A stretch of DNA of 64,000 bases, from NCBI GenBank assembly GCA_021234155.1, contig JAJEKV010000488.1:110051-174050 (forward strand), given 5' to 3'. Shown here piece after piece: positions 5,071 to 45,263 of the stretch. A program made the position numbers and the translations under genes. Below the pieces are notes generated by a model that did not search any database, was not told the DNA's origin, and saw only the letters and a list, made by a program, of their open reading frames with translations. How positions within the stretch are numbered: the stretch's first letter is position 1; each line of letters starts with the position of its first letter. This DNA is from Isoetes taiwanensis. Taxonomy: Eukaryota; Streptophyta; Lycopodiopsida; Isoetales; Isoetaceae.

Positions 5071-5261
5071 AAAAGTGAAAAACCCTAATTTTTGGATGAC
5101 CTAGAATTTTACTGGGGTTGGGTGATTCTGACCTATTAGGAGGCCCAAATGAGAATTTGAAGACTACTTATGGGGTTTGAGCATGCTAAGATCAGCTAAT
5201 GAACCTATTGCAATAAATTGGAGGTCATTTGGATATGGCATGGTGGAGAAAATGCTGAGAG

Positions 5262-5328: not shown

Positions 5329-5454
5329 ATTGACTCTAATTGGGTTAAACTTGTCCAATTTGGGTGATGTAACTAATTCTATTGGACTCGTCGAAGTTAA
5401 GAATCGATTTTTATTTGGTCAATTTGGAGCGCTTTTGGGCACTTTGGGGGCATG

Positions 5455-5525
5455 GTCTCTACGTTGCGCCCGACGAAAATGAAAAAAGTTCATTTTCGCC
5501 CTGGCGGGCGTGTGAGGTGTGAGAC
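5455..5525. repeat. 67-bp hairpin repeat, copy 2
   Basis: Same palindrome as copy 1, with the 5' arm GTCTCTACGTTGCGCCC and the 3' arm slightly expanded (GTGTGAGGTGTGAGAC). The AAAATGAA...TTCATTTTC core is intact. Confidence 0.8.
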
Positions 5526-5875
5526 ATCCTCTCAAATTTGCTCAAAGTGTCCATTTAAACTAAAACAAAAGCCAGAATTTAATATCTTAACCTAATTAAG
5601 CAAGATTACACATATTACTTAGCCAAAAACTGTTTATATTAACAAAAATTTTCTATTATTTACAAAATCTTAAGGGCGCTCTCCTTGATATGGCTAGCAA
5701 GATGCATGTCTTGCCTCATGAGTCATGAACTGCTTGCCGTCGAATCTTCAAATGCCGTTTTGATTTTTCTTTCTTGCCTCTTCGGGGGCGGCAACATCTG
5801 TCCCGTCACCCTCATATCCGTGTTGTACTCACGGATGACCTCTACCGGACTAGGCGGTGAGGCGGTGCCGGGGGA
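5526..5875. other. AT-rich spacer between modules
   Basis: 5540-5670 is AT-rich (TTAACCTAATTAAGC, TTTACAAAATCTTAAG) and would be the 3' untranslated end of module 2 on the minus strand. 5680-5875 is more GC-rich with only short frames. No conserved domain is seen. Confidence 0.4.
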
Positions 5876-6067
5876 TCAAAACCCGTAGCTGGCCGAAGTG
5901 CCCACGATCTCCCGAGGGCTCTCCTCTCGATCTCCTTCCTCGGTCCTCTTCTTCCCCGGTGGTCTAGGAGGCTTGGGAAGCCTGGTGGCGGCTTGAGTTT
6001 GGCTCGTCCGGTGTCCACCTTCGATAGTCCTCACTCGTGCTCTCGATAATATCGTTATGCGCCCCAC
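5876..6067 (-). CDS. short Arg/Pro-rich ORF, module 2 3' part
   Basis: 63-codon minus-strand frame with RLPKPPRPPGKKRTEEGDRE. It continues the strand and charge pattern of the ORF at 6917-6299 and may be the C-terminal end of that protein after a frameshift. No known domain is recognised. Confidence 0.25.
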   Translation of the reverse strand: MGRITILSRARVRTIEGGHRTSQTQAATRLPKPPRPPGKKRTEEGDREESPREIVGTSASYGF

Positions 6068-6298
6068 TTCACTATGAAGGCGTTGTGCTCCCTTAGCTTC
6101 TTACATTAGACCTTGGGGGTCTATCACGTACGCCTCTTCACAGTGGCAGCGGTGCTTTGACCCTATACCACGTCGGGTATGGTGGGGAAACTACGTACCT
6201 CTTTGGGGCTGCTCCGGGTCGAGATCTTGCACCGCTCCTCATTTTGGGGGTTTTGAAGAGCTTGCACCCTGGGTGTTGGGGGCGTAGTCTTCGCCGAA

Positions 6299-6917
6299 TC
6301 ATTGGAGGAGGCGGGGCTGGTCGGCCTGATGGTTAGTTGATGTGAAACCTTTTACCAGCTTAACATTCACGAAGTTTCCTTTTGCCCACCTTCCGCGACC
6401 TTCGCCTTCCTCTTCTTCCACTCGGGCTGCGTTTGGCTCCTCCTCTTCCCTCTTTCTCTTCTTTTCCGGACGGCTCCTTGGCCGTGCATCTTTATCCATG
6501 CAGCGAGCTCTTCCTCCTCGGCTCGAGCCTCTGGCGGCCCATTCTTCATTTTGCTCCTCTGCCCGATCTTGCTCCTCGTTCTTCTTCCTCATCTCCTCGT
6601 CCACTTCTTCAAGGATCTTACGCATGGCGTCCGGCTGCTCTTCGCCCTAGGACCCTGTTCCCATCGATCGTGTGTGCATCCTCCTCCACCTCTCTGTCCC
6701 CCCCCTTCTTGGTCGTTGATATTCTTTGGGGTGCTTCTCGGGACAACTCTCCCTCACTTGTTGAAGGTTGACCTCCTTGCTGGCGGCGGCCGCCGGGCAT
6801 CTCTTGGAGTAGTATTTGGGAGAGTAACACTGGAGGGGACTCTAGCGGTGCGTTTTGTCCAGGGCCATGTTTGTGGTTCGTCGATCCGATATCGGCCCGA
6901 AAAAATCGTCTTGGCAA
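6299..6917 (-). pseudogene. module-2 Glu/Arg-rich protein of unknown function
   Basis: Two overlapping minus-strand frames (6917-6618 and 6625-6299) give a highly charged protein. The first part is Gly/Gln-rich (LLLQEMPGGRRQQGGQPST). The second starts MRKILEEVDEEMRKKNEEQD and is a strong Glu/Lys/Arg coiled-coil candidate, ending with KGNFVNVKLVKGFTSTNHQ. The 8-nt overlap of the two frames suggests a single ORF with a frameshift. Low-complexity charged proteins of this kind occur as gag-like ORFs of plant retroelements, but I cannot assign a family. Confidence 0.4.
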
Positions 6918-6971
6918 GGGGGCGATTTTCTAAGGAAGAAGCGTGAAAAGTGGGGGAGGGGGTCCTAAGGT

Positions 6972-6981
6972 CTATTTATAG
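6972..6981 (-). promoter_or_regulatory. TATA box of module 2
   Basis: Minus-strand CTATAAATAG, identical to the module-1 box at 5061-5070, and followed (minus) by a CT-rich leader and the 6917 ORF. Hairpin copies 3 and 4 are 80 and 295 bp upstream. Confidence 0.7.
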
Positions 6982-7060
6982 GCGGCCGTTTTAGGTCAAA
7001 TTTCAAACTACCCTTTTGGGTCACCTAAAACTCCTAAATTTAAGCATTTCTAACCTCATG

Positions 7061-7127
7061 GTCTCACACATTGCGCCCAGACTGAAAATGAAAGTTTCAT
7101 TTTTGGTCCTGGCGTGACGTGCGAGAC
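7061..7127. repeat. 67-bp hairpin repeat, copy 3
   Basis: GTCTCACACATTGCGCCCAG pairs with CTGGCGTGACGTGCGAGAC, with an inner AAAATGAAA/TTTCATTTTT stem. Sequence and spacing to the TATA box parallel copy 1. Confidence 0.85.
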
Positions 7128-7275
7128 ATGGTGGATTCTGATGCTAAATTTTATACTTTCTAAGCATGTTTTTAGTGATGTAACATACTAATTCTAGCTA
7201 ATTCCTAGCTTAAAATTCGAATTACCAAGTTATTTTTCTGAAATTCATGACTTTCCAAGGTGTTTTGGGCTCGAT

Positions 7276-7342
7276 GTCCCACACGTTGCGCCCAGCCCGA
7301 AAATGAGATTTTCATTATCTGTCCTGGCCCGACGTGTGAGAC
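7276..7342. repeat. 67-bp hairpin repeat, copy 4
   Basis: GTCCCACACGTTGCGCCCAG pairs with CTGGCCCGACGTGTGAGAC, with an inner GAAAATGAGA/TTTTCATTATC stem. It lies about 195 bp from the PBS at 7538. Confidence 0.85.
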
Positions 7343-7537
7343 CATCCTACTTTTGAAGGTTTTGGCTCACTAATTTTTGTCTTTTTATGTTCTCATTCAC
7401 TTAACTGTTACTAGCTTAGCATATACTACAAAAATGAGAAATTTTTTTTCCCATTTTTCGAGGTTTGAGAATCCTATCAAGTTAGTACTCTTTGGGGCAT
7501 GGTGCGTGCTGCTTTGCTCTTGGTCTCCAAGAACATT

Positions 7538-7548
7538 GCTCGATACCT
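7538..7548 (-). other. primer-binding site, tRNA-iMet type
   Basis: The minus strand reads AGGTATCGAGC next to the LTR end ...GCCGACA. The expected tRNA-iMet PBS is TGGTATCAGAGC, so the first base differs and the A of CAG is missing. Its position just inside an LTR terminus supports the call. Confidence 0.7.
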
Positions 7549-7549
7549 T

Positions 7550-8949
7550 TGTCGGCGTCCCCTACCAGATACGGTGCACTCACAGGTATACAAGCAGGAT
7601 TCATCCCCATACCAGCTCCATGTCGTCTGGGGCCCTCCACATAACAACGCGCAACCGCATGGGTTCCAGTGGGAAGAGTGAAAGGGTCATTTACCCGCAA
7701 ATCTCCCTCGGGGCCTACCTAGGCTTTGTGGAAGCGTAAACATACATGTCAAGTATACAATATCATCACATATCCACCTCGAAGGGTGGTACATCAAATA
7801 TCTGCATAGACAAAGATCAACACAATACATATGGGAAATCCTACCCAAGGCTCGGACTCGAAGGGGGTGGTCCGTGACAAGGGTCTCGAGTTCATTGCGC
7901 AATTCATGGCAATGGATTTGGCTGGCATAAGAACATGGCTTAGGGTTGTCCACTCCATCCGCCCCCTCCTAGCACACTTTGTAGAGTAGGGTGAAAAGTG
8001 TTGGGACGACTATAGCCAGCGGGATGCATAGCCAAAGGGGCTATTCTGGGTTGCATCTCCCCAGTTCCGATGGGGCAGGTAGGGATCTCTCCCTCTAGAG
8101 ATCTACATGCTGACTCAAGGTGACTAGAGGGCCATTGCCCTTATTCGACTTGAACCCACTGGAGAGTGACGTATCACTCCACGGGTGTCGAGCCCATGCC
8201 TTGCCCATGCCCATGCAGCGGTGGCAAGCCATTAGACCTACTCCCACAATGATCCCGGTAGACTTTACACACCGAGGATGGATCGTTCAAGAGAGAACAC
8301 GAACCTCTTTATAAGCCGGCCCGGCCCCTTCACCCACAACCGGGTGGCTGGCTCTTGTGAGGCGAATCTCTGAGTGTGCTAGAGAGGCTACTCTAGGAGC
8401 ATCAACTACTAAGCTTTAGGGTCTCCATCCCCCTTCCCAATACAATGAGTTCACAGAGATACATCATCCATATACATCAGAGAAGAACTAAAGAACTAGA
8501 TCTAATCTACATCATAGAGTTAGGTTCCTTAGTTAGAGTCTGGTATCTGGGAATCTAGATGGTTGCTATGGGGCGATTTAATATGCTAAACCTACTGATA
8601 CAATGACTGGAAGATGGTTTAGGCTATTAAATCGACCAAATACCTAATCCTTGGCTCGGTCCTCCTGCCCTGAATTCGACCATCCTGCTGAACTGCTTGA
8701 AGATGGAACCAACAAGGAAAACTAATGGTGCAATTCGCCGACATGAGTGCGGGAGGCGTTTTGACTCACAGGGGCAAAGCAAAGCAGAGCTTTAAAACCC
8801 TATGGCCCGAAAATGGCAAGTTTAGGGTTTCTCCTACCTAAATAGACAAGGGGTTAGGGCTAGGGTTTCCAATTTTCCCTTTAGGCATGTGGGATAATTG
8901 GGAATGGCCCACTTGCCTTTAATGGCTAGGTGGCATAAATGTATCCACA
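7550..8949 (-). mobile_element. 5' LTR (about 1.4 kb) of a minus-strand retrotransposon
   Basis: On the minus strand it begins TGTGGATACATTT at 8949 and ends GGGGACGCCGACA at 7550, followed by the PBS. It shares segments with the LTR at 56881-58202: both start TGTGGA, both have TTGTATTGGGAAGGGG, and both end ACA before a TGGTATCGAGC-type PBS. Contents between are non-coding. The matching 3' LTR is not in the window, and whether modules 1 and 2 or the Ty3 fragment are its internal region is unresolved. Confidence 0.7.
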
Positions 8950-8970
8950 TGGAAAGGTGTGCACCTTAAT

Positions 8971-9045
8971 AAATGTGCACATTGGTAAATGTGCACATTG
9001 GTAAATGTGCACATTGGTAAATGTGCACATTAATAAATGCACATA
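8971..9045. repeat. 16-bp tandem repeat, about 4.5 units
   Basis: The unit AAATGTGCACATTGGT is repeated head to tail, with the last unit degenerate (ATTAAT). Each unit contains the palindrome TGTGCACA. It lies immediately outside the LTR terminus. Confidence 0.9.
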
Positions 9046-9061
9046 CCTTGCAAGTTGCCCC

Positions 9062-9280
9062 CTAGGGGCCACCCGCCTGGCTACACGCCGGGCGCATTAC
9101 CGCGTCGGTCGGAGTGGCGTGTGTCGCTGCGCGTGGCAGGCGATGCGATACGCCCCGGGACCGTGATATCTGGCTTTGGAACGTCCGAATTGAACTTGCT
9201 TGGTGGCAGCTTGGAAATCCCTGTGAACTGCTTCCATGGCCTCCATGTAGGCTTGAACGCCATTCATGAAGGTTTCTTGT
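9062..9280 (-). pseudogene. 3' fragment of retrotransposon third ORF, cut by CACTA insertion
   Basis: The minus-strand frame entering from base 9280 reads FMNGVQAYMEAMEAVHRD and then FQAATKQVQFG, a helical, coiled-coil-like segment. When the CACTA element (9281-19343) and one TGT duplicate are ignored, the frame continues from the segment ending LKLQDSQ at 19344. It is the downstream end of the extra ORF of the Ty3 element whose pol is at 27890-30905. It ends near the 16-bp repeats with no LTR of its own. Confidence 0.6.
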
Positions 9281-9404
9281 CACTACAAGAGGATAGCCGT
9301 TTTTCATCACTTTAATATCACCTAAATTTTCAAAGATTACTAAGTGATATAAATAATGATATTCAAGGTATACTGATGCTACCAATGACAAGATTCTATC
9401 ATCT

Positions 9405-9880
9405 ATAGCATCATCATCAATGTCATAAATATGGTCAACAATTATATCAATACTAATTAATGACAATATATGTGCTACTAATAGCATCATGAATAGTAGC
9501 ACATATTGCATCAACTTTACCATCATTTATTACTCCAATGGTGTTAATGACAATATAAGTGTTATAGCTTATGCCAGTTACAATATCACACATAGCTTCA
9601 TCTATAGTATCACATATTGACACTATTATATCAGTGCTAGCGTCATGAATAATATCACATATTGCATCAACTTTACCATCATTTATTACTCCAATGGTGT
9701 TACTGACAATATAAGTGTTATAGTTTATGCCAATTACAATATCACACATAGCTTCATCTATAGCATCACAGATTGACAATATTATTTCAGTCCTAGCATC
9801 ATGATTAGTATCACATATTGCATCAACTTTACCATTATTTATTACTCCAATGGTGTTAATGACCCCATACACACCCTATT
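9405..9880. repeat. 156-bp subterminal tandem repeat of the CACTA element
   Basis: About 2.8 units with 156-bp spacing, marked by CATCATTTATTACTCC at 9521, 9677 and (variant) 9833. Because 156 is divisible by 3, a minus-strand frame stays open through all units (a 52-residue repeat), but this looks like a by-product of unit length. The last unit stops at an insertion junction near 9861; a further partial unit appears at 14921-15058. Confidence 0.9.
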
Positions 9881-10369
9881 ATTATATATAAACATTGTAT
9901 TAATTATTAATATTGTACATTCAACCATTGTACATGGCATTCTATATATTAAGAAATTGAACCATTGAATAAACCCCCCCCTTGGTTGTTTTTGCCGATA
10001 TTCGCCTTGAGGCGCGTCCATCGGTTGGCTCGGGACCGTTGGATGTCGGTTTTGGCGATCTTGGCCATCGCTAAGCGCGACGAGTTTTTTAGCAGGTTTT
10101 AGTTAACTGTTAGTTACGAATACAAAGGAAAACCAAAGGTTGTGAAGCGCATTGTATGTATGTATGGGCGTATATGTTTGGAGCTCCTCGCCAACCGATT
10201 GGGCGCTCGCTTGGCGAATATGTAGCATAATAACGGGGGTTTTTTTGTGTTTTTGTATGCTTTTCACTAAGGTTTTCCTATGATTTTTGATGTATTCAAA
10301 TGGATGTACTAATCATTACATTTAGAGTGCACCATTTCTGAGCCATTGATTTTAGCATTTTTTTTTTCC

Positions 10370-10600
10370 AATGGTCAATAACCAATGGCTCACAACAAAA
10401 GCCCCTTTTTTGTGCGTGTGGTGCATAATGGTCAACAACTAATGGCTCACAACAAAAGCCCTTTTTTTGTGCGTGTGGTGCATAATGGTCAACAACCAAC
10501 GGCTCACAACAAAAGCCCTTTCTTTGTGCGTGTGGTGCATAATGGTCAACAACCAATGGCTCACAACAAAAGCCCTCTTTTTGTGGGCTTGAAGGGCGCA
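10370..10600. repeat. 57-bp tandem repeat, 4 units
   Basis: The unit contains ATGGCTCACAACAAAAGCCC and then TTTTTTGTGCGTGTGGTGCA, starting at 10385, 10442, 10499 (variant) and 10556. The length is a multiple of 3, so both strands stay open (MAHNKSPFFVRVVHNGQQ on plus). I regard it as a minisatellite rather than a gene, since no start context, domain or continuation is seen. Confidence 0.9.
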
Positions 10601-11259
10601 TGTAGTGCGATTTCGCCCGGCAACACATTTCTTATCATAACTTCTGATCCAGAACTCTGTTTGAGATGATTTTTATTGCGTTGGAAAGCTCTTTCCGAGA
10701 TCTTTTTGATGGTCTATGATATGGATATGTTTGGTTAAATTATCTATGCTAAAACAGCAATTTCTCGGCCGGATTTGGTAGGCTTTCACATCCTACTAGC
10801 TGATTAATACAGGATTGCGCTATTGGATATTGTTTTATGGCTCATTCTGAATGCAGCTTGCAAAAAACTACCATGCATTTTTAGATTTTGAGGCAGTTAT
10901 TAAGCAAATTCCAAGGCTTTTAGATCCTTGTGCTAACAAGCGTTTAAAAGTTTTCCACTTTGGTTTTCACCACAAGCATCCATGGAGGCCAAAGGCTCTT
11001 TGTTAAATTCAGGTTGAAAAATGTTTGTGTATGGGTGTTGCAAACTTTATGACTTTCAGAATAATGGGATCAATCCGCTCTATCTTTATGGTAACTTTTA
11101 CTTATGTTCTATTTGTTTTATTGTGATGAAATTCAAAAGCTCACGGTGATGAAAGCCTCAAATGAATTCTAGTTTTTTTACGGTTTGAATTCTAAATTTT
11201 TGTCTTTGGGGGGGCGTCCTAAGGCCCGAAGGGGCCAAAAACTTTTTGCAACACAAACC

Positions 11260-11627
11260 ATTAACATCCAACATATAAAAAATTAAATCCCCCCAAACAC
11301 ATAACAACCAACACATAACAACCATTGACATTAACAAGATTCTTAAAAAAATACTATAAGATTTCAAGCGGAATACTATATGGTGTTGATTTTATGCGTG
11401 CAAAATACAATTATAAGGGCTCTCGCTGCCCTACATCACCCCGAGTGTGAATATGCACCCAAACCAAAGGGGTTTAAGGGGATTTTAATTTAAATGTGTT
11501 GGATCCAATGGTTGTGTTAATTAATGTCAATGGTTGTTATGTGTTGGTTGTTAATGTCAATGGTTGTTATGTGTTGGTTGTTATGTGTTTGGGGGATTTA
11601 ATTTTTATATGTTGGATGTTAATGGTT
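11260..11627. repeat. 83-bp inverted repeat enclosing a dispersed ~170-bp segment
   Basis: The arm 11260-11343 (CATTAACATCCAACATAT, then AAATCCCCCCAAACAC, then the AACAACCAACACATAAC core) recurs inverted at 11545-11627. The enclosed segment (AAAATACTATAAG ... ACCCAAACCAAAGGGGTTTA) also occurs at 32530-32700, outside the CACTA element. It is therefore a mobile or dispersed sequence of its own. Confidence 0.8.
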
Positions 11628-11774
11628 TGTGAATATCCAAAAACAAGCTGGGGGGGTCAAGGGTGTTTATTCAATGGTTCAATTTCTTAATATATAGGCG
11701 CCATGTACAATGGTTGAATGTACAATATTAATAATTAATACAATGTTTATATATAATAGGGTGTGTATGGGGTC

Positions 11775-13130
11775 CAAATTTTTTGGCCTTCGGGCCTAAG
11801 GAAGGAAGGAAGGGTGTTCTAAGAAGCATATGCATAAGAAAACAATCTCTATGCATATTTTTTTTGTGCTAACCATAATAAATGAAACTAGATATGAAGC
11901 CTCTATGCCAAATTGTGAAACAAACAAAAGAAAAATAACATTGCAACTATAGGAACAAGTCCCAAACAAGGGAGGCATTCAAGATCATGTCACGGTCTTT
12001 ATTTATTACATTTGTTTAATTTGGACATTCATCATTGCGAAGCATTTGGGTACCAATAACTATTTCATAGGGGTTGGGGTAGCCCACTGTGAGTGCACAA
12101 AAAATGGGACATAATGGCAAGACCCACTTGTCACATTCACCAAGAGGCGGATTCCACAAAATTGGCACGGGTACATGCAAACAATGAAGCTTAGGCATTT
12201 CTATATGCCTCACTAAACCATATAATTGCATCTTGAAAAGAACTAGAAAGCGTTCAAAAGTGGATATACACATAGACTATCCGTTTACATATATTTTACA
12301 AGTTACAAGCCCATATTTCATTCCCACCGGACATGAAGTTTGCAATTGTACAATTCCATCATTTGAGCAAAAGGAGATATAACTCAGCATCACATTGATT
12401 TGAAATGCGAATGTCATAAAGCAGCCAAATATTTAGACTAAAACACCCATGTAATGCCGAAATACTAATGTGCATAATGGTTTACATCTCACCACTAACT
12501 TCATTTAACTTCACCCTCTCCAATATGTGCGATGTATATGCGGTAGGCATTTTGCATTTTCTTGACGTGTTGCCAAACGTTATCATACTCTGCTCATCAA
12601 TGCGTCTTCATTTTCATTATTGCTATCTCATTCTAGAATGGGACTCGCGATGAAACCAACAAACCTTTCGACTTAGACTTAGACTTGCTTCTCATTCATC
12701 TCGTGATTTTCTACAATGGTGGATAGTGGGTAGCCGCACACATGCGAACTACCCATAAAAATAAAGGGAAAATCAATTATATCATTTGACCCCAACAAAT
12801 TACAATGCTAATAGATAGATAGATAGTAGTTTTATAGAGACTAGGCTAGTGTACTGCCGAAAGCTTATCTTAGGGATTAAAAAACCCCGCCCTTTCGGGT
12901 TTTGAGGAAAACCCTAGTGATAAGCCTTCGCAAGAAGGGGCTGGACAAGCGTAAGGCATAAAATCGCTCCCAAAACCCACGAATGGAAAAGTCGAAAACA
13001 GATGCCGCTTCGCTAACACGTACGCACATCACCAACAAAACAACAAGACAAAAACAAACCTCAGTGGAGTGGAGGGCTGATTACAGCGTGCCACGCGATA
13101 AAAATACAATAACAAAAAGAAGGGGGGAGG
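11775..13130. other. Non-coding stretch within nested insertion
   Basis: Short frames only (for example minus 12273-12016 and plus 12468-12653) with no domain I recognise. 11785-11812 is an inverted copy of 11207-11243 (CCTAAGGCCCGAAGG core). A short GATA run lies near 12811-12827. 12880-12905 has a small CCCCGCCCTTTCGGGTTTTG hairpin. No gene is supported. Confidence 0.4.
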
Positions 13131-13134
13131 GTGG

Positions 13135-13652
13135 GTTCAAAGAGAATAAGGTAATCTGGAGAGAGAAGAGGAAAGCGCCGAGAAGTGAAGCGTAAACGCC
13201 TAAAATAGCGAACTCCCAACCGGAAGCGGGCATGCGCCGCCGCATGCAAAAACATGCATGCTCGTCCCATTCTAGAATGGCGATCCGATGTCGGATGGAT
13301 CGATGGGATTCTAGAATGGGACTCATGAGAAACCAACAAAACCCAGAATACCAAAGGACTTCCTTAACAAACTAGGATCGGGGACGAAGGTCACGGGATG
13401 AAGGCTAAAGGCGAAAGGACGGCATGAAAGAAATGCCAAATTGGCCAAAACCGGCAGGAAGAAGCCCTCCCCCTGCAGGGGAAACAATTCAAAGAGAATA
13501 AGGTCTTGTTGAGAGAAGAGGAAGCGCCGATGAGAAGTCGCGTAAACGCGCGCCTAAAATAGCGAACTCCCAACGAGCGGGCATCGGTACGCATGCATGC
13601 AAAACATGCATGCTCGTCCCATTCTAGAATGGCGATCCAATGTCTCGGATCG
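13135..13652. repeat. ~180-bp direct repeat pair
   Basis: 13135-13315 and 13487-13652 share TTCAAAGAGAATAAGG, CCTAAAATAGCGAACTCCCA and TGCTCGTCCCATTCTAGAAT in order. Differences are concentrated at CG/CHG-rich spots. Between them lies 170 bp of unrelated sequence. A piece of the unit (ATTCTAGAATGGGACTC) also occurs at 12633. Confidence 0.85.
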
Positions 13653-14920
13653 ATGGGATTTGTTGTAGTCATGGAAAGGAGTATGGCGACCCATTTCCAT
13701 GTTTACAAATATGAAAATCTAAATATGTAAGATGACCTATAGCATAGAATGTTACCCGAGCAAAATGGCATGATTCTCCACATATTTTGCCATGAAGTGC
13801 TTCTTCCTCTCCGTTTCCAATTCCTCTCTATGGCTTTGGCTTTTTGCTTCTCTCTATTTGGTAAAGTCCGGGGGACTTAACCATTCCTCATCTTTATCAA
13901 CATCATCATCGGCCATCTGTCAATAACCATCAATTACCAAATACCCAAGATTACCACATATAGAACTCTTGCCCTTTTCCTTTTTAATAGGAACCTCTCA
14001 ACAACAAAGTAGTATTTTAGCTTCTAACCCTTAAACTATTTCAGCTTCCCCATACAAAACCGGCAGAGTCTTTGCTTCCTTCTCATTCATCTAGCCGCTT
14101 TCGGCAGAAGAAAGGGTTGGCTTCTAGAGCACCGCTAATTTGGCTAGAATCGGAAGAAAAGGCGTGTTTTTACACCTAGCAAAGACTGCGGTGCTCCTTC
14201 GCAGATTCCACGGCTCGGTGGCTGATTTGTGGTTGCTTCCTCCGATATCTTGACCAAAGTGATAAGAAGAAAAAACTTATCTTTACGGACAAGAATTAGG
14301 AACCCGAAAGTGGGTGCTCAACTAGCCGAGGAGCCCCAAATTCTCAAGAATGGCATGGATTTGGACTCGGTCGATTTTGGCTCATCTCTCTCTGCTGCGG
14401 CGGTCTTGATCCAAGGCCCAAACGTTCAAACCTTTCTTTTTCGCTCATTCATCCCGCTATTTTGCCATGTCTCGATAAAGCAGGCCTTATATGGTCGCAT
14501 CGGATCTTCTAAAACAGGCCTTATATGGCTGCAACCTCCGAATAATGATATGATCTTTAGAACCCTTCATCCCGTTACTCTTCTCTGCTCCATCCTTTAC
14601 TCTTCTACGCTCCATCCTTCTTCCTCCGGCTACAAGGGCATGTGCGCGACGCATAAAATCTACGCAAGAAATGGCAACCCTAAAAGCGGGTGTCTCGATG
14701 TTTGCATGTGAAGCACACCGAGATAATACCATAAATGTATAGAAAAAAATACGCACATGGGTCAACCCATAGTAAGAAACCATCATAAGAGAATAAATGT
14801 TCTGCGCGCTCTATAAATACATACTCTATACGAACAACTAGATACATGCCCCAAATCATATAAGAACCATTGTGAAAAAGCCGTATAAATATATGTTTTG
14901 CGCGACGAACCATTTTTTGT
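13653..14920. other. Unassigned stretch with one 160-codon frame
   Basis: The plus frame 14229-14711 (starts MVASSDILTKVIRRKNL) is the longest open stretch, but it has no recognisable domain, no codon-usage support I can judge and no TATA context. It may be a captured host fragment. The right edge at about 14920 is where the CACTA subterminal repeat resumes, so this stretch is the distal part of a ~5-kb insertion. Confidence 0.3.
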
Positions 14921-27899: not shown

Positions 27900-29072
27900 T
27901 TGTTTTAGGCGAAAACCATTAATTCGGTGTAGGTAATGGAGTGCCATCTAACTCGGCCCGACTTGAAAACACCGGGTTGAACAACTTGAATAATTTGGTA
28001 AGGACCAAGCCACTTTTTTAATTATAACTTTCCCGGAAAAATTTTTGTAACGAGAATCATAAAGCAAAACCAAATCACCTTCTTTAAAAGTTTTGGTCTT
28101 CAGATGTTTGTCATGCAAGGATTTCCAGAATCGCTAGCCATGAAGAACCGAATATAAGCATCTCGCCTAAGTTCATCCAACGTTTCAAGTTGGTAAACTC
28201 GTTCTTGAAGAGCTGCGGTGGATTACATGTGGTAGCAAGCTGGAAACGGCGAAGTGTCGGAAGAACATATTCAAACGGCATCAAAGCTTCTTGACCATCA
28301 ACCAACTTAAAAGGAGTATGACCCAAGAGCAATCTTGAAAACAACAGCTTATAAGCCCAAAGAAAAGAGGGTAACTTTTTCTTGCCAATCCGTTATGAGA
28401 GGCATCTGATTTTCTTCAAAATAGTGATGAGAGTCTTGTTGGTGCTTTCACCAAACCATTCCCTTTGAGGATAGTAAGGTGTGCTTTTTGGCGGTGATGT
28501 ATGTGCGATAATCCGTGACTCCTTTGAGGGTGTGATTAACAAAGTGAACTCCACAATCAACGACAAGTTCCGCGGGGACAGCCAAAAATGGCGTGATGAT
28601 GTGTGTGTGTTAACCTTGGCGGGTTTTGTCGCAGATTGTCTGGAAGTGCACAAGCCTCAGCCTATTTGGTAGCTTAATCGGTGATGACCCGGAGAATGTG
28701 CGGCACGGGTGTGTCTCGGCGGGAGGATCCATGGGCCCCACAAAGTCCATTCCCATTTGGCCGAAAAGGAAGTGGCGTATTTTACCCGGCGCCAATCCGG
28801 AGCGCTTCACGGCCGCGGGCCGACCCACACACCACATTTATCACAATGGCGGGCGGTGGCGTGGCATCCTTGAAGAGCATGGGCCGTAAATAGCCGGGAG
28901 AAGGATTTTGGCGTGCCATGGTGTCACCGTGGAAATGACTACCACCAAGCCCCTCATGGGCTTGTCGAACGATATCGGGCACTTTATGAGGAAGAACACA
29001 AATACCGAGGACCATATCCTTGCCGCGCTTTGTACAGATGGCCCACAACCATGGTGTAGTCACGGACCTCAT
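27900..29072 (-). pseudogene. Integrase, copy 1
   Basis: Inserts the element's cDNA. It has a zinc-binding region (CVLPHKVPDIVRQAHEGLGG, 29000-28930), a core MGMDFVGPMDPP with the first catalytic Asp (about 28760), WFGESTNKTL with the Glu (about 28450) and a C-terminal tail (TPFKLVDGQEALMPFEYVLP, 28310-28250). The pieces are in different frames. Copy 2 at 50140-51407 is the parallel gene. Confidence 0.88.
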
Positions 29073-29760
29073 GGAGAAACCGACGCTGACGGATCGAAGT
29101 TTGTCGAGAAGGATCTTCGAGGGAAGAGCACCCAGTGAGAAGAAGATACCGAAAAGTTATGGAACCAATGGGCGCGGGCTGATCAAAAACAATTGTGGCG
29201 TTAGGAAAGGCATCCGAGACACCCGTGGAGGGATCATCGCAGAATGCGTGAGAGATAATATGGGACAACATGAGATTTGCCACCTTTATGAACGATTTCA
29301 AAGGAGCAAATTTTTGCAGAAGAAGGGCCCAACGAGCAATCCTCGCCTGCGGCGTGGACTTGTTGATCAAATAGAGAAGAGCCCCGATGATCAACAAAGA
29401 ACTTGATCCGACCGCCAACAAATAATGACGGAAGCATTGGACACAAAAAATTAAACCCAAGGCCTCCCTTTCTGGCAAAGAGTAGTTGCGCCAAAGAAGA
29501 TTGAGTTTTCTGCTGGCATAACGGTTGGGTTTATCTGTATGCGCATCATATGCTTGAGAGAGAACAACACCAATAGCAAATGCGGAGCATCGACATGAAC
29601 ATGGAAGGGCTTGTCCCATTGAGGCGGAACAAGCACGGGGCCCGAAAAGCAAGAGCTTCAATGTTGGAAAGCAAAGATCCGCCGGGAATTCTAAGCCCTG
29701 TGGATTCACCACCCGTGAGTTTATGAATGGGATCAGCAATAGCTGCAAGTCCAGGAATGA
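28984..29760 (-). pseudogene. RNase H domain, copy 1
   Basis: A 254-codon open stretch on the minus strand. FAIGVVLSQAYDAHTDKPNR, YSLPEREALGLIFCVQCFRH and APLKSFIKVANLMLSHIISH correspond to the Ty3 RNase H/connection region, and an alternate frame carries PFHVHVD. It continues into the integrase linker. It is the longest intact piece of this pol copy. Confidence 0.88.
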
Positions 29761-29799
29761 AGGTGGAATAGTAATTTACCTTGCCCAGGAAAGAATGTG

Positions 29800-32760: not shown

Positions 32761-34965
32761 GGCCCTAACTAAAGCAAGCATAGGTAAGTGCCAAGAAATA
32801 TACATTATAAAGGTTGTTTATGTAAGTACATAAGTGCGAAAAAATAAACAACTGTAAGAATATGGTGATTTGCTATGCAAAATCTGACCATCAAATAGTA
32901 AGAACAAAGAACAAAAGGATATGTAGAGAATGCATGGATATAAATATCTTATTTCAAAGACCACAATCTCATAGAGGCAACATCACCATTAAATATTGAG
33001 AACAAAGAACATGTAGCAAAATGTATATGATACATAAAAACATTGAACTTAAGCAACCGCCCAATGAATTTCAAATATCCCATTTCATTAAATATCCTAT
33101 TTCAACATGACAAGTATCATGTATTCAAAGATGTGAAGGTTAGTCATTACATAAATAGTTAAATAGATTCACCTTTCATGTGGGGCATTAGAGAGGCTAA
33201 AATGCTTTGGGCTTGTGAAGCCTTTATCTCAAATGCATTACCCCTCAGATTTCATGAAATCTCTCCTTCAAACAACTTTATTTTCTTTAAAAGCATCTTC
33301 TAGCATTTTGCATTACCATATATTACAAAAGGCAAGCAATTCAAGCCGTCCAAAGGACATTGTTTCAACTAGTAGTAGAAGAAAGGAAAAACACGGGATG
33401 AACAGATCTTGCTCTAGCATTCTCGCTGCAAATAAAGGCCACCACCGGAGAAACCGCCGAGGAATGAAAACCAAACAACCGGTGCAAATACAAATAACCT
33501 AATTTCGATGATAATAATCGGTCAAAAGAAGATGGCACCCAAAGGACCCTGCGGACCTTTTTACAGGATTGCAAATAGGGAGAAGGAAAAGATATTGAGC
33601 TTTTAAAAGAAAGGCCTTTCATTTTCACTTCCACCGAATTCTACTCGGACCCAGATGTGTGGCTTCTTAAGTAAGAAATCCCTTCATTGCCACAAATTTC
33701 CAGCGGACAGAAAGCCTTCTCTCGTACCGCTCCATCGCCACGACATTATGAGAGAGTAATAAAGAGTTCCGGGAGAGGAATTACAAGCAAATAGCAGAGC
33801 CCTCGAAGAACTTGCGTAAGAAACTCCCTGCTGCAACAAAACTCCTGTTGTAAACAAACGCCAGGTTGAGACAGGGCGGCCTCCATTAGCAGTCCACAAA
33901 ACCTCTCGCCTCGAAGGATTATCCGCCTGCTCATGTGCAAAATTACGAGAGCACATACCCATTGCCTGAATTCATATCCTCCTCGTTTTGGTTAACTTTT
34001 GAAACCACCGGTTTATGACAAAGCGTAAGGCGTAACCTTAATAAAATCAACGATTAAAATAAAATTGCTTTTTGGTCGGGCGGATTCCGCACCGAATCAT
34101 TGCCTGCATAACGATGACCAAACTTTTGACCATATGGTGACATCAACCGCCAATATGAAACATAGCTACCTGTTTCTCAAAGCAGATAAGGTCGACGTAA
34201 ACATCCGATTCAAATGGTGCTAAGCCTCCCAAGGACAACTAGAGAGAAGAGACATTGGATCAACATTTAGCATGTGAAAAATTAATAATATAAATTCACC
34301 TACCTCAAGGTCACAAAGATGAAACCTGGTCCCAAATCATCCCTCCCACACTAACAAGCCGCGTGCTTTGTTTCCATGGAACGTTACCCACCGCTAAGGG
34401 AGACGCCGATTTTCACAAATGGTGTGCAAGGAAAGAGCTCGGGCCCCATCAAATATTGTCACATCAGCAACAAAACGCCCACCCAGCTTTGGTATTAAAT
34501 GCATTAGCTCTCCTGTGGACAAAAAACGGCAGGCTACCACCACAAGTGCTAGAACCAAAGACTCGCCACCAAGACCAGGACCAAACCAGCTCCCGGGCGG
34601 GGCAAGATCTACCAAAAGGACCTTGACAAATTGCCCAAATGACGGCCATATAGGGCAGGAGGCCCGCAGACAGCCCAAAATCTGCATCACTTGATCGATT
34701 AGCTACCCAGAACCCTAAAGTTGAACCCTAAAGTTCAATGCCTCGTTGTTTGCATGGACTTCATAAAATTAAATTAAGTAAGTTTTAAGGAACAAAACAT
34801 GCAAGGCAAAACCATTGCAAAACCATAGATAAAATGCCATTCAAATATATGAATCCGAGGTGCACTCTAGATATATCGGATTAGTATACCTCGCGCAATA
34901 CGCCCATGAAATCATATAAAACCATGCCAAAAAGCTTATAAAATCACAAAACCCCCGTTATAATG
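32761..34965. other. Stretch without recognisable genes
   Basis: Frames up to 98 codons occur on both strands (for example 33365-33634 and 33684-33962 minus, 34363-34694 plus and minus) but none shows a domain, consistent strand bias or splice linkage. 32770-33180 is AT-rich. I cannot assign a function. Confidence 0.4.
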
Positions 34966-38063: not shown

Positions 38064-38100
38064 GACTAAGCGCAGGTATAAAATCACTAGCGGGGTACAA
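38064..38100 (+). repeat. Left terminal inverted repeat of the 7.2-kb transposon
   Basis: GACTAAGCGCAGG, then TATAAAATCACTAGCGGGGT and ACAAAAA. The inner ATAAAATCACT and GGGGT blocks match the right end. Confidence 0.7.
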
Positions 38101-38189
38101 AAAAAACGCTGAAAAGCAAAGCAAAAAAGCAAAGCAAAAGCAAACTTTTTAGGTTCACATTTTGTTAGTTCTAATCAATTTTACGCCAT

Positions 38190-41093
38190 AACTACTTCGG
38201 GCGATGGCTTATGAAGCTTTTCGACGAAGGAATGGTACCGCAGAAATGGATTAAAATGGTTGGAGGATCAAATTATCGACGAGGATTGGGAATCGGCCTC
38301 GAATCATGGCTTCACCGACTCTGGGGTAAAATTAAGAAATTTTATGTGAAGCCTCATTTAAAAGAACTGCTAGATTTTCTTATCTCGAGCTTTATCCTCA
38401 TGGTCTGGCTTAACAATGAGCTCGGGGAAGAAATTTGCCTTTGCATTTACTTGGGAGAATTGTAGTCGAAAGCGGCTCTTAACCCTGGACGAACACAAGA
38501 TAAACTGGGTTTCATTTAAAGAACAAGTTGACAGTACCCAAGGAAGCTAGTTAAGCTCGAACCAAAACATTCCCGGTCAAACCTCTCTCCAGCAAAGAAG
38601 AAGAACCACACCAAATCCCACACCATTGAAGCCAAGTAATGCACAAGTTTACTCTCGTGCAAGTGCCGTTCCTTTGCTAAACAGAGGTAGCTTAATGTTT
38701 AATGTTAGGGTCTTGGATGAAGAAGTGAATAGGTTGGAGGGTGAATTTGAATTGTGCAAGAAAGATCCGCAGACATTGCAAGCAAGATCACCCTAAACGA
38801 ACATGTGAATGAGAGAGATATTGCCGGGATCGAAGCAAGCGGTGAGAAGACATAAGCAAAGGTTGCGGTGAGATCAATTTTTGGAATCCAAAGTAGAAAA
38901 GTCTGATTCTCGATAAGAAAAGAATTGAGGACTTGATGCGGGACTTGATGCAGGAGAAATTCTATTGAGGAAATTAGAGAGCCTTATTGAAAAGGTGGAT
39001 GATCATCAAGTTGAGAAGAAGAATGAATTGGAAGCATTACATGGAGTGCTAGAAAGGACTCCGCTTCAAATGGAAGAATTACAGGCTAATTGCTATAACT
39101 TGAGTAGTGTAAATGCCTCCCCAGATTCAGTTCAAGTTATTGCAAAGCAAAGTTGCCATTGTGTTATGAAATACCATGTTACGCATGTGGATTAGCTTTC
39201 CAAGATGACTACAAGATTAGTGCAAGTGCTACCATGCCAACATGCTTATCATTTAATTTTGTACCGCTTCTTGTAGAGAATAAAAATGCCTGGATTGTTC
39301 TATGGATGTCCCAATGAAATTCTTTGAAGAACTTGGCTTAGAGACCAATGCAAATGAAGGAGAAGAAAAGAAGAACAAAAGAAATGTAAGAATCATCTAA
39401 GAAAGTAAGTATTATTTATTTGCTTTTTGCTTTATTTGTGAAAATTGCTTTTGTTGAAAAGTTTTGGTCATGTTATTTGCGGGGAAAAGTTACCAACAAA
39501 AGGAAACATGATGACTATGTGGATTTAGATGAATTTGGTGAATTTGCCGATGTGAATGAAGATGCCGGGTGATTCTCGACCGTGCATATGAAGGTATTTT
39601 TAGAAAATATTCCAAGTTCTTCGAGGGAAGGAGCTTCTTTGGGAATTAAGAGCAAGGTTGAGAAGAGCTACAATCAATATCAAGGAAACTAGCCTTGAAC
39701 CTCAGCAGACTATTCTTCCCCGATCCTGTGAATCCAACTCAGATATTCACATCAATGCCGTGGAACGCATAACTCTGCATTGTGGATCAGCCAGATTTGG
39801 ACAAATTGGTGGTCACATTGCGCATGATGCCAAATGAATTACCAGCAGTTGGATGAGCAAGACAAAGAAGCTGATCGGAGGAGGATGGAAGAGAAGTTCA
39901 AGAGGATGCAACAAAGAATACAAGAATTCCAGGAAGCGTCTTTGCAGGCAAAGACAAAAAGAAGAAAGCAATCAAACCTATTCCCAAAGTAGTTTGAGAA
40001 GGTGCAAGTTACAAAAAAGGTGACAAACGACCCAATAGAAAGAATATTAGATGCCTATAATGGGAAGGGCTAAACTTTGAACCTCGTAAACCACTCAGTA
40101 TTTGACATTGTCATATTTTCAATTTGTAAGATTTCAATTAAAATAAAATCTTTTCTAAATATTAGAATCAGTAAACTTTTCATTAAAATAAAATGTTTTC
40201 ATTGAATATGTGAATCAGAATCTTTTCATAGTTGACAATGTCATATCTTAGTTTGTGTCTAAAGTGTTTTTAAAATGTATCTCTTGTTTGTAGGGAGGCA
40301 CAAAAGACAAACCGTTGGTCCTTGATTTGAATGGTGTGCTTATGAAGAGTTGGCATAAGCATGACAAACAGAACACCAATACCGCAAATCAAGAAACGTG
40401 TACACAACCAACAAAGTGCTGGTTTGCAGACCAGGTTTGCATAATTTCATGGACTGGGCCCTAGAACATTTTGAAATTGCTATTTGGTCCAGTATGAACC
40501 GCTACAACATCATTGAGTGCCTGCAGCAGATGTTGCCTGCAGATTATCTTATTAAGTTCAAGTTCATTTGGGAAGGAGCACAATGTTTGAAATTGCCTTA
40601 TCCACACATTCACCCAATCCGCATTAAGCGGTCTATTTGAAGCCACTTTCTTATGTCATTGAAGCATATCCCGAAATGAAGAATGTCTTGTTGGTGGATG
40701 ATTCTCTCAGATAAATCTTTTTTTTTTTTCACCAGTGTACCATTCTTTAATAGTTAGCTCATTTCAGTTTGATGAGGGCACAGAATGGTTTGAAAAGATG
40801 AAGGATGTATTGTTTGGTTGGGCTGAAAGTCCTGAGCCTACAAAATTTGTGAAAGAACATCTTGCCCCAGAAATTGTCAAACAAGAAGACTTTGATATTT
40901 TGGATTTGTGTTCCAAGCATGTGCAGGAGAATCCAAGATGGGCTATTCTCAGAAACAAAAGGCGATTTGCCATGATGGAACCTCCGGTAAGCAATTTATT
41001 TTTTTGCTTGATTTGTTTGATTTGTTTGGCTTGCCATATCTTCTTACCTTAACTGGAGTTCTGCTCTTGCAGGTTCCTGGAAGACAGTTGTGA
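38190..41093 (+). pseudogene. NIF/FCP1-type HAD phosphatase-like gene
   Basis: HAD-fold, plant SCP1/NIF-like protein. The best exon begins after an AG at 40293: KPLVLDLNGVLMKSWHK is motif I, with the second Asp replaced by Asn (DLN instead of DxD). It is followed, after a +1 shift near 40398, by RPGLHNFMDWALEHFEIAIW and SSMNRYNIIECLQQMLPADY. After another shift near 40640 comes PLSYVIEAYPEMKNVLLVDD, the acidic VDDS motif. Exon 40768-40986 (FDEGTEWFEKMKDVLFGWAE) joins through a GT-AG intron to a last exon (VPGRQL, stop at 41093). The donor after VDDSLR reads AT instead of GT. The part upstream of 40290 is less clear, with Lys/Glu-rich coiled-coil pieces (38965-39195, 39830-39990). Nucleophile loss plus two shifts suggest no phosphatase activity as read. 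Confidence 0.75.
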
Positions 41094-41483
41094 GGCAATG
41101 GATGTTAAGGAATGTCAAGAAAAGTGTAAGATGTGAAAAAATACAGCTGGCAACCATAAAATTTTCTTCCTGGTTGCCACATTTTGAATGCACATCATTG
41201 TGCAATGTAATGTTAGATGTGAATATACCTGGCATACATAAATTTTTTTCCCCTGGTTGCCAGATTTTGAATGCACATCATTGTGCACTCTATTGTAAAC
41301 TGCTGTAACAATATCAATATGAATGTCAATGTTTTGTACTATGCACTTGTGAACTGAAACCCAAATCAGAGAGCATTGAACTCATTCCTGAACAGTAAAG
41401 ATGACATGATTTTTCCGCGGTGTCTCTTCTCCTAACATGTACATGTTGCCACCAATATCATTCATGTCCAAACTTAACATGCC

Positions 41484-44400
41484 TTACCAAGTGGTCAGAA
41501 TTGAAGCCACTGGCTTGTCCACCAGCAATTGAAAAGTTAGAGTGTCTAATTGCTGATAGTAGTGGCCTGATACTATAACCTCTCCAACATTGTATACATT
41601 CCCCCACTCATCAACATAAGAATCCAGCAATGTTTGCTTTGTCTCAGTACACTGCAGTAAGTAAAAGTCGACACCCTCATCATTATTTTCTTCTGCAGGT
41701 ACAGCAAAGTTATCCCCAACTTCTAAGATGTCACTGAGGTAATCAAGCTCACCCTCATCATCATCATCTTCTTCTTCCTCCTCCTCATTGGATAATTTGT
41801 AAATGAGATTCACCTGGTTGTACTTCTTTTGGTTTTAATACACCTTCTTTCCAGCCTCCTATCCTTCTCTTGTTAATGCAATTATCCCAATCTCCATGAA
41901 AACATGCTTGGCAAAAAAAACAAGGCGTATCCGTACTCACTTTTGTTGATCCTTCCTATCTGCCCTAATGCTATGTAACTTTGAGCTCCCATTCAAAGTT
42001 TTCCATTCCTTCTTTTCAGACTTATCTATGTCCTTAGCTTCAATATTCCAAAAGTACCTGGAAAGCATTGACTCAAAGCAAGTTAATGCAAAAGCAAAGC
42101 AAAGCAAATTCAGAAAGCAAATGCAAGAGCAAATTGTTAGCAAAGATAATCAAAGCAGAAATCAAAAGTAATGAGACATCCACCTGGAATTGAATGAAAG
42201 CCAACATAAATGCAGAAAGCAAATGCAGAGCAAATTTAATGAATGCAGAAAGCAAATGCAAAGCCAATTCAAAGCAAAGTTAGTCAAAGCATTAATCAAA
42301 GCAAAAGCAAAAAGCAAAAGCAAAAAGCAAAAGCATCAAAGCAATTCCATCAGAGCAAAGATAATCAAAGAAGAAATCAAAAGTAATGAGACAACCACCT
42401 GGAATTGAATGAAAGCCAAGATAAATGCAGAAAGCAAATGCAGAGCAAATTTAATGAATGCAGAAAGCATATGCAAGGCCAATTCAAAGCAAAGTTAGTC
42501 AAAGCAAAAGCAAAAAGCAAAGCATCAAAGCAATTCCATCAAAGCAAAACACTAGGCCAGCCTACGGAAAATACCTTTTTTTTCATTGGCACAAGGATGG
42601 TTTTCAATGTACCATTTTAGGAATTCCACCGCATCCTTAGCACACATTGCCTTCCAGAATCATACTTCAGTTGCTCCTTTGCTAGAATTAATTTCAAAAC
42701 AGCTCAGCTCCATCATGTTCTCCTTTACCATGAGAACTTGCAAAAACACCATAAATATTCCAGAGTAGGATTGTTCACAAAATTTCTACCTATGTACCGT
42801 ATGGGTCCGCACCTTTGAATTGAGATGTGCAACCATCACTCCAAAAACATGGTTTTCGTACTCTATATTCATTTGTTTCAGCCATGTGCATGGACTTTCA
42901 AAGTGGTTGACAAACTCGGTTGAATGCTCCTTGCAATCAGAAATGTAAAAATGTGTCTCCTTAATTATTCTTCGATCCTGTACCAACTTGTTTCTCGATC
43001 CGAACAAGATCATTGTGTTCCTAAATTCTTCCTCTTCCTTTTTCAGGATGTCTATAGGTAATGTGAACAAGAATAGTAATTTGGTCGGTATGCCAATGGC
43101 ATGATTGTACTTCCTTCTGAATTTTGAGGCTATAGTTCTCAAGAAAATCAATTATCGATACAATAGTATTCTTTGGAAAGTTGGCTAGCATTGCTTAAAT
43201 TGCTTTGCTCGCCAATGTCTTAGTGTAATTATGTGGAACAAATTGCACAAGTGTCTTGTTGGCATACTGAATAAACTCTTGTACCGGAGCAGATTTGTAT
43301 GCTAATCTTGTGACTTTAGTTGGTTTTTTTTCCCTCTTACGAATTGAACTCTCCTTCAAATTACAGGGCTCTTGCTGCAATATGAAGACAATTTGGTGAT
43401 GTTAGGTCCTAAACAAGTTTCAGAAAAAGTAAATAACACTAAAACAAATTAATATACCTTCTCAAACTGTTTCCACTCAACAGAAATGTCTTTCATTGTC
43501 TTTTTCCTTTGGATGATTGCAATCTGAAAGCTACAACGTTAGCTCATTTCCAAAAATAGATATACATGAATGTTAAATGTACCTTTTCAAACCACAAGAT
43601 TTACAAGCAACCATCGCATGGGAATGCTTGTGCCATTCTTCTAAGGGATCTTGCTTTTCACATACAAGTTCCTCCACAACTCACTAGTAGACTTGTAAGT
43701 CATCAATTTAGCTTTGCATTCATCTCCTTCTCCACACACACAATCGCAATTGCAGAACAATTTTCATGAACACCTTAGGGTCTGTTTTTTATTCTCGCTC
43801 AATGTTTGAAGAACAAATTCCAAAATGGATGTGATATCGACAAAGACAAGTTTCCCTCTCATGAAGTCTTCTAACAAATGAAGGCTTCAGCCTCTCAAAT
43901 GTTTGTTGTGCAATGTTGATATGTGGATATTGTTGCTTTGAAAGCCATATAGAACTGGAGCTTGCATAACATGTAAAATTCATTTGTAATGCATAAAGCA
44001 AAATCATGAAAGTAATGAAACAATGAAGCAAATCAATCATAATAAGTAATTAATCAAAGATACTTTGGAGACATTGCGTAATGCAAATTTATAAAGCAAT
44101 AGGGATTTAAACAATGCAGATAGCAAATTCATACATAAAACATGTGAAGCATAAATTGTTCAACTTCAACATGAAAAGTTTTATCAAACACTACAAATTA
44201 ACAAACTGACTGAAACATTCCAGATATAAATACCGAGACCTCAAGCAAAATGGATTGATGGTCAACTTTATTGCCATTTTCTGCCTTAAACTTCCTCACA
44301 TGTTTTTGTATGGAGAAACTCTTGTGTTTTCAGTAGTCCGAAACCTTGGATAACCTTTTTTCACTTCATCAACGATGTAATCGACCTTTTCTTCCTCAAA

Positions 44401-44960
44401 ACATAGACCAGGACCCGATTCCCTTCGCCATTACTCTTCTTCTATAGGGTCGCACAAATAGATTTTCTAGGCACTTCACAGCACCGCTAATGCTGAGAAT
44501 GATTAAGTTTATTCGTGTGGATGTAACCATTTGTAAAGTTGACCTTTTGCTGCCGTAATGTCAATCTTTCCGGGTTCGCTTTGTGCAATTTGCATAGTTT
44601 TCCTTCACATTAGCAATCACTTTTTGCATAACCTTTGTCTCTCTTTTGTCCAACGCTTACTTGTAAAGGTACATTTGGTTTTATCTTTCTTACAAATCTG
44701 TCCACAATAGCAGCCTTATCTAAAGCATTGGCATGTTTTGTCAGATCCTCAAAATAATCATGCATATCCTTTGAAATCTCCTGAATTCTTCTCACACTGA
44801 GGCTTAATTCTTTGAATTAGCAAAGCTTCCATCAATTCCTTTTTGCTTTCCTTGATTCCCTCTTTTCTCGGCAGCATCAATTTCCACGAAAAAATCGTCT
44901 CTTCTCATCTTCATCCATTCAAATTATGAATATGAGAAACTCCAATCGCTGATTCTCCAC
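41484..44960 (-). CDS. Multi-exon DDE-like transposase of the 7.2-kb transposon
   Basis: About nine exons on the minus strand, in family order. N-terminus: RRDDFFVEIDAAEKR, then DLTKHANALDKAAIVDRFVR (44940-44655) and EEEKVDYIVDEVKKGYPRFR (~44400). FERLKPSFVRRLHERETCLC (~43860). Cys-rich CDCVCGEGDECKAKLMTYKS and WHKHSHAMVACKSCGLKRY (43755-43575). KDISVEWKQFEK (43490). NTIVSIIDFLENYSLKIQKE, CHWHTDQITILVHITYRH and IIKETHFYISD (43190-42940). WSDGCTSQFKG (42843-42811). SHGKGEHDGAGAVLK (~42710). FWNIEAKDIDK...SSKLHSI (42065-41950). CQACFHGDWDNC (~41900). Then the acidic linker and DILEVGDNFAVPAEE (41810-41690). Candidate catalytic Asp residues are in DFxEN, SDG and DGAG. Two or three frame slips occur (one at a TTTTT run before WSDG, one at a CCAGG). 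I recognise the family from plant genomes but know no accepted name. Confidence 0.85.
42061..42560. repeat. AGCAAA-rich low-complexity introns with 215-bp tandem duplication
   Basis: Dense AAAGCAAA/AGCAAATGC words. ATGAGACATCCACCTGGAAT at 42171 and ATGAGACAACCACCTGGAAT at 42386 define a 215-bp duplication carrying GAATGAAAGCCAA and GCAGAAAGCAAATGCAG. It lies between transposase exons, so it is presumably intronic. The same AGCAAA words occur at both ends of the transposon (38112-38145, 45178-45200). Confidence 0.85.
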
Positions 44961-45214
44961 CGTAACCAAATTTAAGAGAATGGCAAGAGAGGACAGTTCC
45001 GCCAACCTCGCCTCCTTCAATTTCGCAATTACACTCCATCATTCTCCCGCCAAAGCCAACCGTAACTGATTCCCCAATAATCGGACAGCCATGTCATCGA
45101 TCCGTAGGAGTGATCGAGTTTGGGGGGAATTCACAGTTCGCTGTGTGCTGAGAAGAACGAGCAAAGCAATTCGATAAAGCAAAAGCAAAGCAAAGCAAGC
45201 AGACGTCCGGACAC

Positions 45215-45263
45215 TACTTTTTCAACCCCACGAAAGTGATTTTATGCCCCTTTAATCTTAGTC
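45215..45263 (-). repeat. Right terminal inverted repeat of the 7.2-kb transposon
   Basis: The minus strand reads GACTAAGATTAAAGGGG, then CATAAAATCACTTTCGTGGG, then GTTGAAAAAGTAGTG. The differences from the left end are a 3-bp gap and scattered changes. Confidence 0.7.

Follow-up and report, generated by a model that had tools for sequence, protein, structure and literature searches.

The question raised by a 64,000-nucleotide stretch of Isoetes taiwanensis DNA (the window; contig JAJEKV010000488.1, positions 110,051 to 174,050 of the forward strand) is whether a DDE-like transposase gene and a NIF/HAD phosphatase-like gene, lying close together at about 38 to 45 kb of the window, form a single transposon and, if they do, what a phosphatase-like protein is doing there. 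A first-pass annotation had proposed that they lie convergently between terminal inverted repeats (TIRs) at 38064 and 45263. Copies elsewhere in the genome confirmed one transposon that holds both genes, convergent, within TIRs, and the window element is an old, decayed copy of this repeated DNA transposon. We consider it probable that it represents a lineage of two-gene TIR transposons, autonomous in type and moving by cut and paste, in which a RING-NIF protein acts as a noncatalytic cofactor.

The NIF segment is present in at least 40 copies in the 1.66-Gb genome, the window copy among them (40 of 66 candidates were scored), and the 39 others are 90 to 96% identical to it. We compared 20 of those 39 copies with the window. 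The left limit of homology fell at 38075/38076 in all 20, and the right limit fell at 45245 to 45252 in 19; the remaining copy, L009, stops at 45217. Copy-to-copy identity, window included, was 93 to 97% (median, 95.2%). Exact 4-bp target duplications (TTTG, AGGT, TCAT, ATAT, TAAT, and others) flanked 15 of the 20 copies, the outcome of a check that the first-pass annotation had suggested, and exact flanking repeats of other lengths were found in 2 (2 bp), 3 (3 bp), and 0 (5 to 8 bp) of the 20. The copies without an exact 4-bp duplication are L009, L012, L016, L024, and L028, of which L012 and L024 are near misses; the window copy itself has no target duplication at its ends. Aligned with the window, the genomic copies place the element ends at GGGTATAAAATCACT...AGTGATTTTATACCC, and the exact left-end 23-mer occurs at 47 places in the genome, compared with 0 for its reversed control. 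The element as first drawn was thus real, but its outermost 10 and 14 bp were wrong. The GACTAAG/CTTAGTC words at 38064 and 45263, which had been taken for its termini, were rejected; they are flanking sequence, outside the homology of 20 of 20 copies on the left and 19 of 20 on the right. The shared TIRs, the fixed duplication length, and a transposase with a DDD/E RNase H fold (in homologue models) are those of a TIR cut-and-paste transposon.

Within the window alone, the repeat was less telling. The chained-word TIR score in 301-nucleotide end windows was reached by 0 of 1,000 shuffles and by 7 of 4,922 real slice pairs, and in wider windows by 19 of 1,000; the plain local alignment was reached by 12 of 1,000, 99 of 4,922, and 115 of 1,000 and, in another run, by 20 of 200. 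A further scoring did not discriminate, with the observed value near the shuffle mean, and was superseded. When the window was searched for ends by pattern, two matches came up, a number that 14 of 100 shuffles also reached, so that the search was uninformative. The window-only TIR goes only moderately beyond chance, and the matter is settled by the genomic copies. The coordinates of the element and its parts are collected in Table 1.

Table 1. Features of the transposon in the window (positions counted from the first base of the window).
Feature	Positions	Strand	Content or evidence
Whole element, decayed copy	38074..45249	.	7176 bp; homology limits of 20 copies and the same termini beside 4-bp duplications (15/20)
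Left terminal inverted repeat	38074..38097	+	GGGTATAAAATCACTAGTCGGGT in most fetched copies; first base altered in the window copy
Left subterminal AAAGC array	38113..38141	+	AAAGC density
Left gene, N-terminal part	38204..39340 (approximate)	+	N-terminal region, coiled coil, RING-like finger at ~39165-39330
Left gene, middle part	39490..40075 (approximate)	+	Acidic linker, AT-hook-like PRKRAGRPAKKKK (read in L009, L014)
Left gene, C-terminal part	40303..41090	+	NIF/HAD phosphatase-like domain, motif I LDLNG; intron at ~40987-41072
Transposase gene, several exons, decayed	41440..44930 (approximate)	-	Homologue matches at 41.4-44.1 kb; open frames of L011, L026
Transposase intron, AAAGC filled	42058..42574	-	GT...AG splice sites; 30 AAAGC in 42060-42560
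RNase H-like DDD/E core	42700..43350	-	DFLENY ... SDGCTSQFK ... HGKGEHDG; window frames, alignment, homologue models
Transposase intron	43375..43457	-	GAGAAG/GTATATT...TTGCAG/CAAGAG
Right subterminal AAAGC array	45163..45196	+	AAAGC density; orientation as in the left array
Right terminal inverted repeat	45226..45249	-	Read from aligned genomic copies

The same 20 copies show how closely the two genes keep together. All of them have the NIF region and 18 have the DDE core, so that the pair recurs within its own family. Copies L016 and L021 have internal deletions (~42.2/42.5 to 44.15 kb) that remove most of the transposase and leave both ends and the partner gene, and L021, which has an exact TAAT duplication, may have moved as a nonautonomous element. 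Smaller gaps occur in L017 (42357 to 42670), L028 (39308 to 39850), and L009 (41323 to 41971). Stretches with at least four AAAGC words per 100 bp occur at only three places in the 64-kb window, all of them inside the element: just inside each end and in one transposase intron, in a single orientation. The subterminal arrays are possible transposase binding sites. The AAAGC-filled intron also contains a 171-nucleotide internal duplication (92%).

Both genes of the window copy have frame breaks, and less decayed copies supplied open frames; GT-AG introns are readable in both. For the transposase, open frames in L011 and L026 cover the N-terminal and C-terminal parts. The minus strand of the window was matched by all 124 family proteins at E<1e-5 (proteins that were gathered by homology to it), which bore out the proposed DDE-like gene on that strand. 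There were 345 homologues, and the 120 listed include proteins from moss, liverwort, conifers, and metagenomes. The homologues have a Cys-rich N-terminal region and a beta-rich C-terminal region; the third acidic residue is the Asp of HGKGxxDG, with a median D2-D3 spacing of 41. Among the VIA-align fold families, retroviral integrases came closest to the modelled core, the models being those of homologues and not that of the window element. A structure search of BFVD gave no match at E<=0.001. In a Pfam scan of 76 relatives, no family was matched at E<=0.01, rve and transposase families included. Scans of viral contigs gave 54, 31, and 66 pattern stretches and scans of prokaryote genomes 51 and 89, with 0 confirmed in either group. 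Searching the same genome with one family protein, P0007, gave 12,608 first-look candidates, of which 70 were scored, and at least 9 of the 71 transposase loci listed have open frames of at least 600 amino acids without a stop. The family is hugely amplified in this genome and may include recently active families. In one liverwort relative, P0121 (Calypogeia fissa), the N-terminal region looks like a coiled coil, and the first catalytic motif is missing from the predicted protein.

The partner gene proved to be more elaborate than the first-pass annotation had foreseen, with a coiled coil, a RING-like finger, and an AT-hook-like segment in addition to the NIF/HAD domain. That domain was confirmed on the plus strand: PF03031 scored 24.5 bits against a single unbroken frame of the window, 48.7 bits against the hand-joined copy, and 54.0 bits against copy L010 (cutoff, 21.8). 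Motif I of the window family reads LVLDLNG, and its Asp-to-Asn change at the second Asp, already noticed in the window, is real and recurs in the open frames of L010 and L013; the C-terminal (D/E)DS motif is retained. The GT-AG intron shows that the NIF gene did not arise as a retrocopy. The N-terminal part was read from open frames in L014, L013, L023, and L027. Its RING-like stretch, CSACG...LPCQHAYHLIC...CLDC, is spaced like a RING-H2 finger, and the L013 frame gives the ligand order C-x2-C ... C-x-H-x2-H-x2-C ... C-x2-C. The middle part had no Pfam match, and we presume from its appearance by eye that PRKRAGRPAKKKK is AT-hook-like. The RING and NIF parts may be either one protein or the products of two separate genes. 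A protein search with the hand-joined NIF sequence of the window gave 42 candidates but no match at E<=1e-5; the decay of the query and the need for exact words are the probable cause. Matches of partner and transposase pieces to Not3, HrpB2, BRE1, and other models in hmmscan were under their cutoffs and were not used.

Recurrence beyond the family of the window was examined in the flanks of 6 of the 71 listed loci. At three of the six (J29, L036, and L037), beside divergent transposases 39 to 42% identical to P0007, tblastn found a NIF homologue convergent with an open transposase frame (E values of 8e-9, 1e-21, and 4e-21, respectively), and the coiled-coil/RING query matched there as well (7e-6, 2e-6, and 7e-9). 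Pfam NIF scored 46.7 bits at L036 and 45.4 bits at L037, both over the 21.8 cutoff. At J29, the sole terminus candidate with a 4-bp repeat, GGGTCCAAGCACA..., is of the GGGT type, has a TGGC repeat, and encloses both genes (3148 to 14455 of the joined stretch C23:250000-266500). A fourth locus, J31, was added by eye: a coiled coil that ends in a RING-like stretch (26.5 bits for BRE1, cutoff 27.9, and 21.9 for zf-rbx1, cutoff 31) and a motif-I-like KKLLIFELDGVLMKLF, which had no Pfam NIF match, stand there in the expected strand and order. Motif I reads DLN in the window family, DVN in L036, DVN in L037, EIN in J29, and ELD in J31 (the last two read by eye). In a separate place, L030:336-1579, a further transposase-like frame pair (LQLDNCAGQNKNRW ... 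HTHEDVDALFG) adjoins a transposase of this family; these frames look like those of a different plant DDE family.

Two of these loci could be compared codon by codon (L036/L038 versus L037/L039). The ratio of nonsynonymous to synonymous change (omega) was 0.24 for the NIF part (214 codons; bootstrap, 0.15 to 0.38), 0.35 for the coiled-coil/RING part (134 codons; 0.19 to 0.57), and 0.11 for the transposase (607 codons; 0.08 to 0.15), and omega reached 1 in 0 of 1,000 bootstraps for this one pair of loci. These values mean that both genes stayed functional as the two loci diverged. The selection check proposed in the first-pass annotation thus came out as purifying for both genes between two loci and as nonsignificant within the window family, as described below.

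We hypothesize that the transposase would bind the element ends, perhaps via the same-orientation AAAGC arrays, cut with a 4-bp stagger, and insert the element, and that the second protein (or protein pair) would dimerize by its coiled coil and serve as a transposition cofactor. A DxDx motif I is required by ordinary HAD phosphatase chemistry, and it was found in none of the five families. Because its motif I lacks DxD, the NIF domain would be more likely to bind a phosphorylated partner than to dephosphorylate it, which favors the binding role over the catalytic one, as initially suggested; by analogy with the FCP1/SCP families, one would first think of the polymerase II tail as that partner. 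Ubiquitylation of the bound target or of the transposase may be the role of the RING-like part. It looks as though the transposon makes use of the phosphatase-like protein and does not carry it as stray cargo. A bolder version, which we put forward tentatively and regard as doubtful, is that a land-plant DDD/E lineage of superfamily rank has long been paired with a coiled-coil/RING/pseudophosphatase gene whose product reads a phosphorylated partner (e.g., the polymerase II tail) and so couples transposition to transcription or ubiquitin signaling.

Several results weigh against a recurrent transposase and RING-NIF cofactor. The zf-RING_2 model scored 18.4 bits (E, 0.0027), under its 27.3 cutoff, and 12 to 17 bits at other loci, and RING models stayed under their cutoffs at every locus scanned. 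With plain Foldseek, no PDB entry matched the transposase at E<=0.001. The NIF frame at J29 (L029) had no Pfam match, so that its evidence is from tblastn alone; at J31, neither the NIF nor the RING part was matched by tblastn, and the terminus search that succeeded at J29 gave nothing. No NIF or RING partner was found at J30 in ~10.9 kb on the expected side, nor at L035 (7.1 kb) in what remains after at least 1.3 kb of N at its start. Within the window family, shared variants showed no significant codon bias, with N/S at 0.67 of expectation for the NIF part (P=0.17) and 0.78 for the DDE core (P=0.37); the coiled-coil row of that test was invalid, with 23 stops in the majority frame.

Of the competing explanations, the one we take most seriously is that the RING-NIF protein is an antisilencing factor that keeps the element expressed and has no part in cutting or joining. 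This is a real possibility: transposons with such second proteins exist, namely, Vandal MULEs with their silencing regulator and elements with TET/JBP enzymes (PMC12730594, in excerpt), a RING, AT-hook-like, and phospho-binder-like makeup would fit chromatin or transcription targeting, and the partner gene is under selection between two loci. The present evidence, however, fits a direct transposition cofactor equally. A NIF domain that retains phosphatase activity through an unusual chemistry at motif I seems unlikely to us. The first Asp of motif I is retained by the window family and by L036 and L037, and the C-terminal (D/E)DS motif is kept, but the second Asp is Asn in these same three families, and J31 and J29 read Glu-x-Asp and Glu-x-Asn by eye. 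Less likely still is a single capture of a host gene that the element has since carried along as a passenger. NIF proteins are generally host proteins, and the retained spliceosomal intron would allow pickup as genomic DNA; against this, the NIF and RING region stands in the same convergent place beside the divergent transposases, and selection between the two loci was purifying on both genes. As for two unrelated decayed genes that are neighbors by chance, beside a coincidental repeat, the moderate significance of the TIR in the window alone would have left room for them, but the explanation is refuted by the copies, with their common left end (20/20), right end (19/20), and 4-bp duplications (15/20), and its probability is negligible.

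TIR transposons with an accessory gene are a known element type (PMC12730594 and PMC9587614); this and the following comparisons draw on excerpts of the cited papers. Fungal TET/JBP transposons, Vandal MULEs, and SET-carrying HarbingerS/MuDR elements have a second regulatory or modifying gene (PMC12730594), and they share the second-gene design with our element and differ in the second gene itself and in the transposase. KolobokP is likewise a DDD/E transposon whose second gene resembles that of an enzyme (PMC9587614); our element differs in that the KolobokP excerpt describes a His-Me nuclease and long terminal direct repeats. Sola2-type elements of Dictyostelium, with TIRs of 12 to 13 bp and 4-bp AWWT duplications (PMC3627910), resemble it in duplication and TIR length, and our element may be of a Sola lineage; the excerpt of that paper mentions no NIF or RING partner. 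According to PMC3985635, Sola groups with RNase H1 and is separate from integrases. Retroviral integrases and the IS21 transposase IstA resemble the family in the core fold of the homologue models, not in sequence homology, and differ from it in that it lacks rve and has an Asp as its third acidic residue, a Cys-rich N terminus, and a beta-rich C terminus. The C/DxxH motif between the second D and the last acidic residue, which defines the MuDR/hAT/Kolobok/P/Dada group (PMC10045372), is present in 3 of the 64 members that have all three Asp residues (4 of 76 unfiltered), too few to place the family there. The CMCT group (CACTA, Mirage, Chapaev, and Transib) has C(2)C and H(3-4)H in the same interval (PMC12730594); CxxC occurs in 3 of the 64 members, though H-x(3,4)-H occurs in 48, and none of the CMCT Pfam families (Transposase_21, DUF1258, and DUF1280) was found among the 76 members at E<=0.01, so that the family does not fit this group either. 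The partner shares the NIF/HAD domain (PF03031) with the FCP1/SCP/Dullard phosphatases and UBLCP1 and is unlike them in lacking a DxD motif I, in lying downstream of a coiled coil and a RING-like finger, and in being transposon borne; TIGR02251 scored 24 bits, far under its 139 cutoff, and UBLCP1 was a weak PDB match (E, 0.09 to 0.25). Among the open-licence papers listed by the searches, there was no name for this transposase family and no report of a NIF/FCP1/HAD partner in transposons (RING partners were not searched for).

The control of transposases and the escape of elements from silencing can be studied in DNA transposons whose second protein is conserved. If the reading of the partner as a RING and inactive-phosphatase protein under selection across divergent families is true, it would be a new kind of helper, one that ties transposition to phospho- or ubiquitin signaling. 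The transposase is abundant here, often in long open frames, and because none of its 76 relatives had a Pfam match, plant annotations possibly take such elements for host genes or leave them without a class. Elsewhere in the window, a tblastn match at 32847 to 33068 to the N-terminal region of the transposase (E, 1.6e-4; 1 of 124 queries) was set aside as probably due to chance, and Rfam and tRNA scans of the window found nothing. A reverse-transcriptase RNase H frame at 28984 to 29775 (RT_RNaseH, 56.1 bits) is part of a retroelement.

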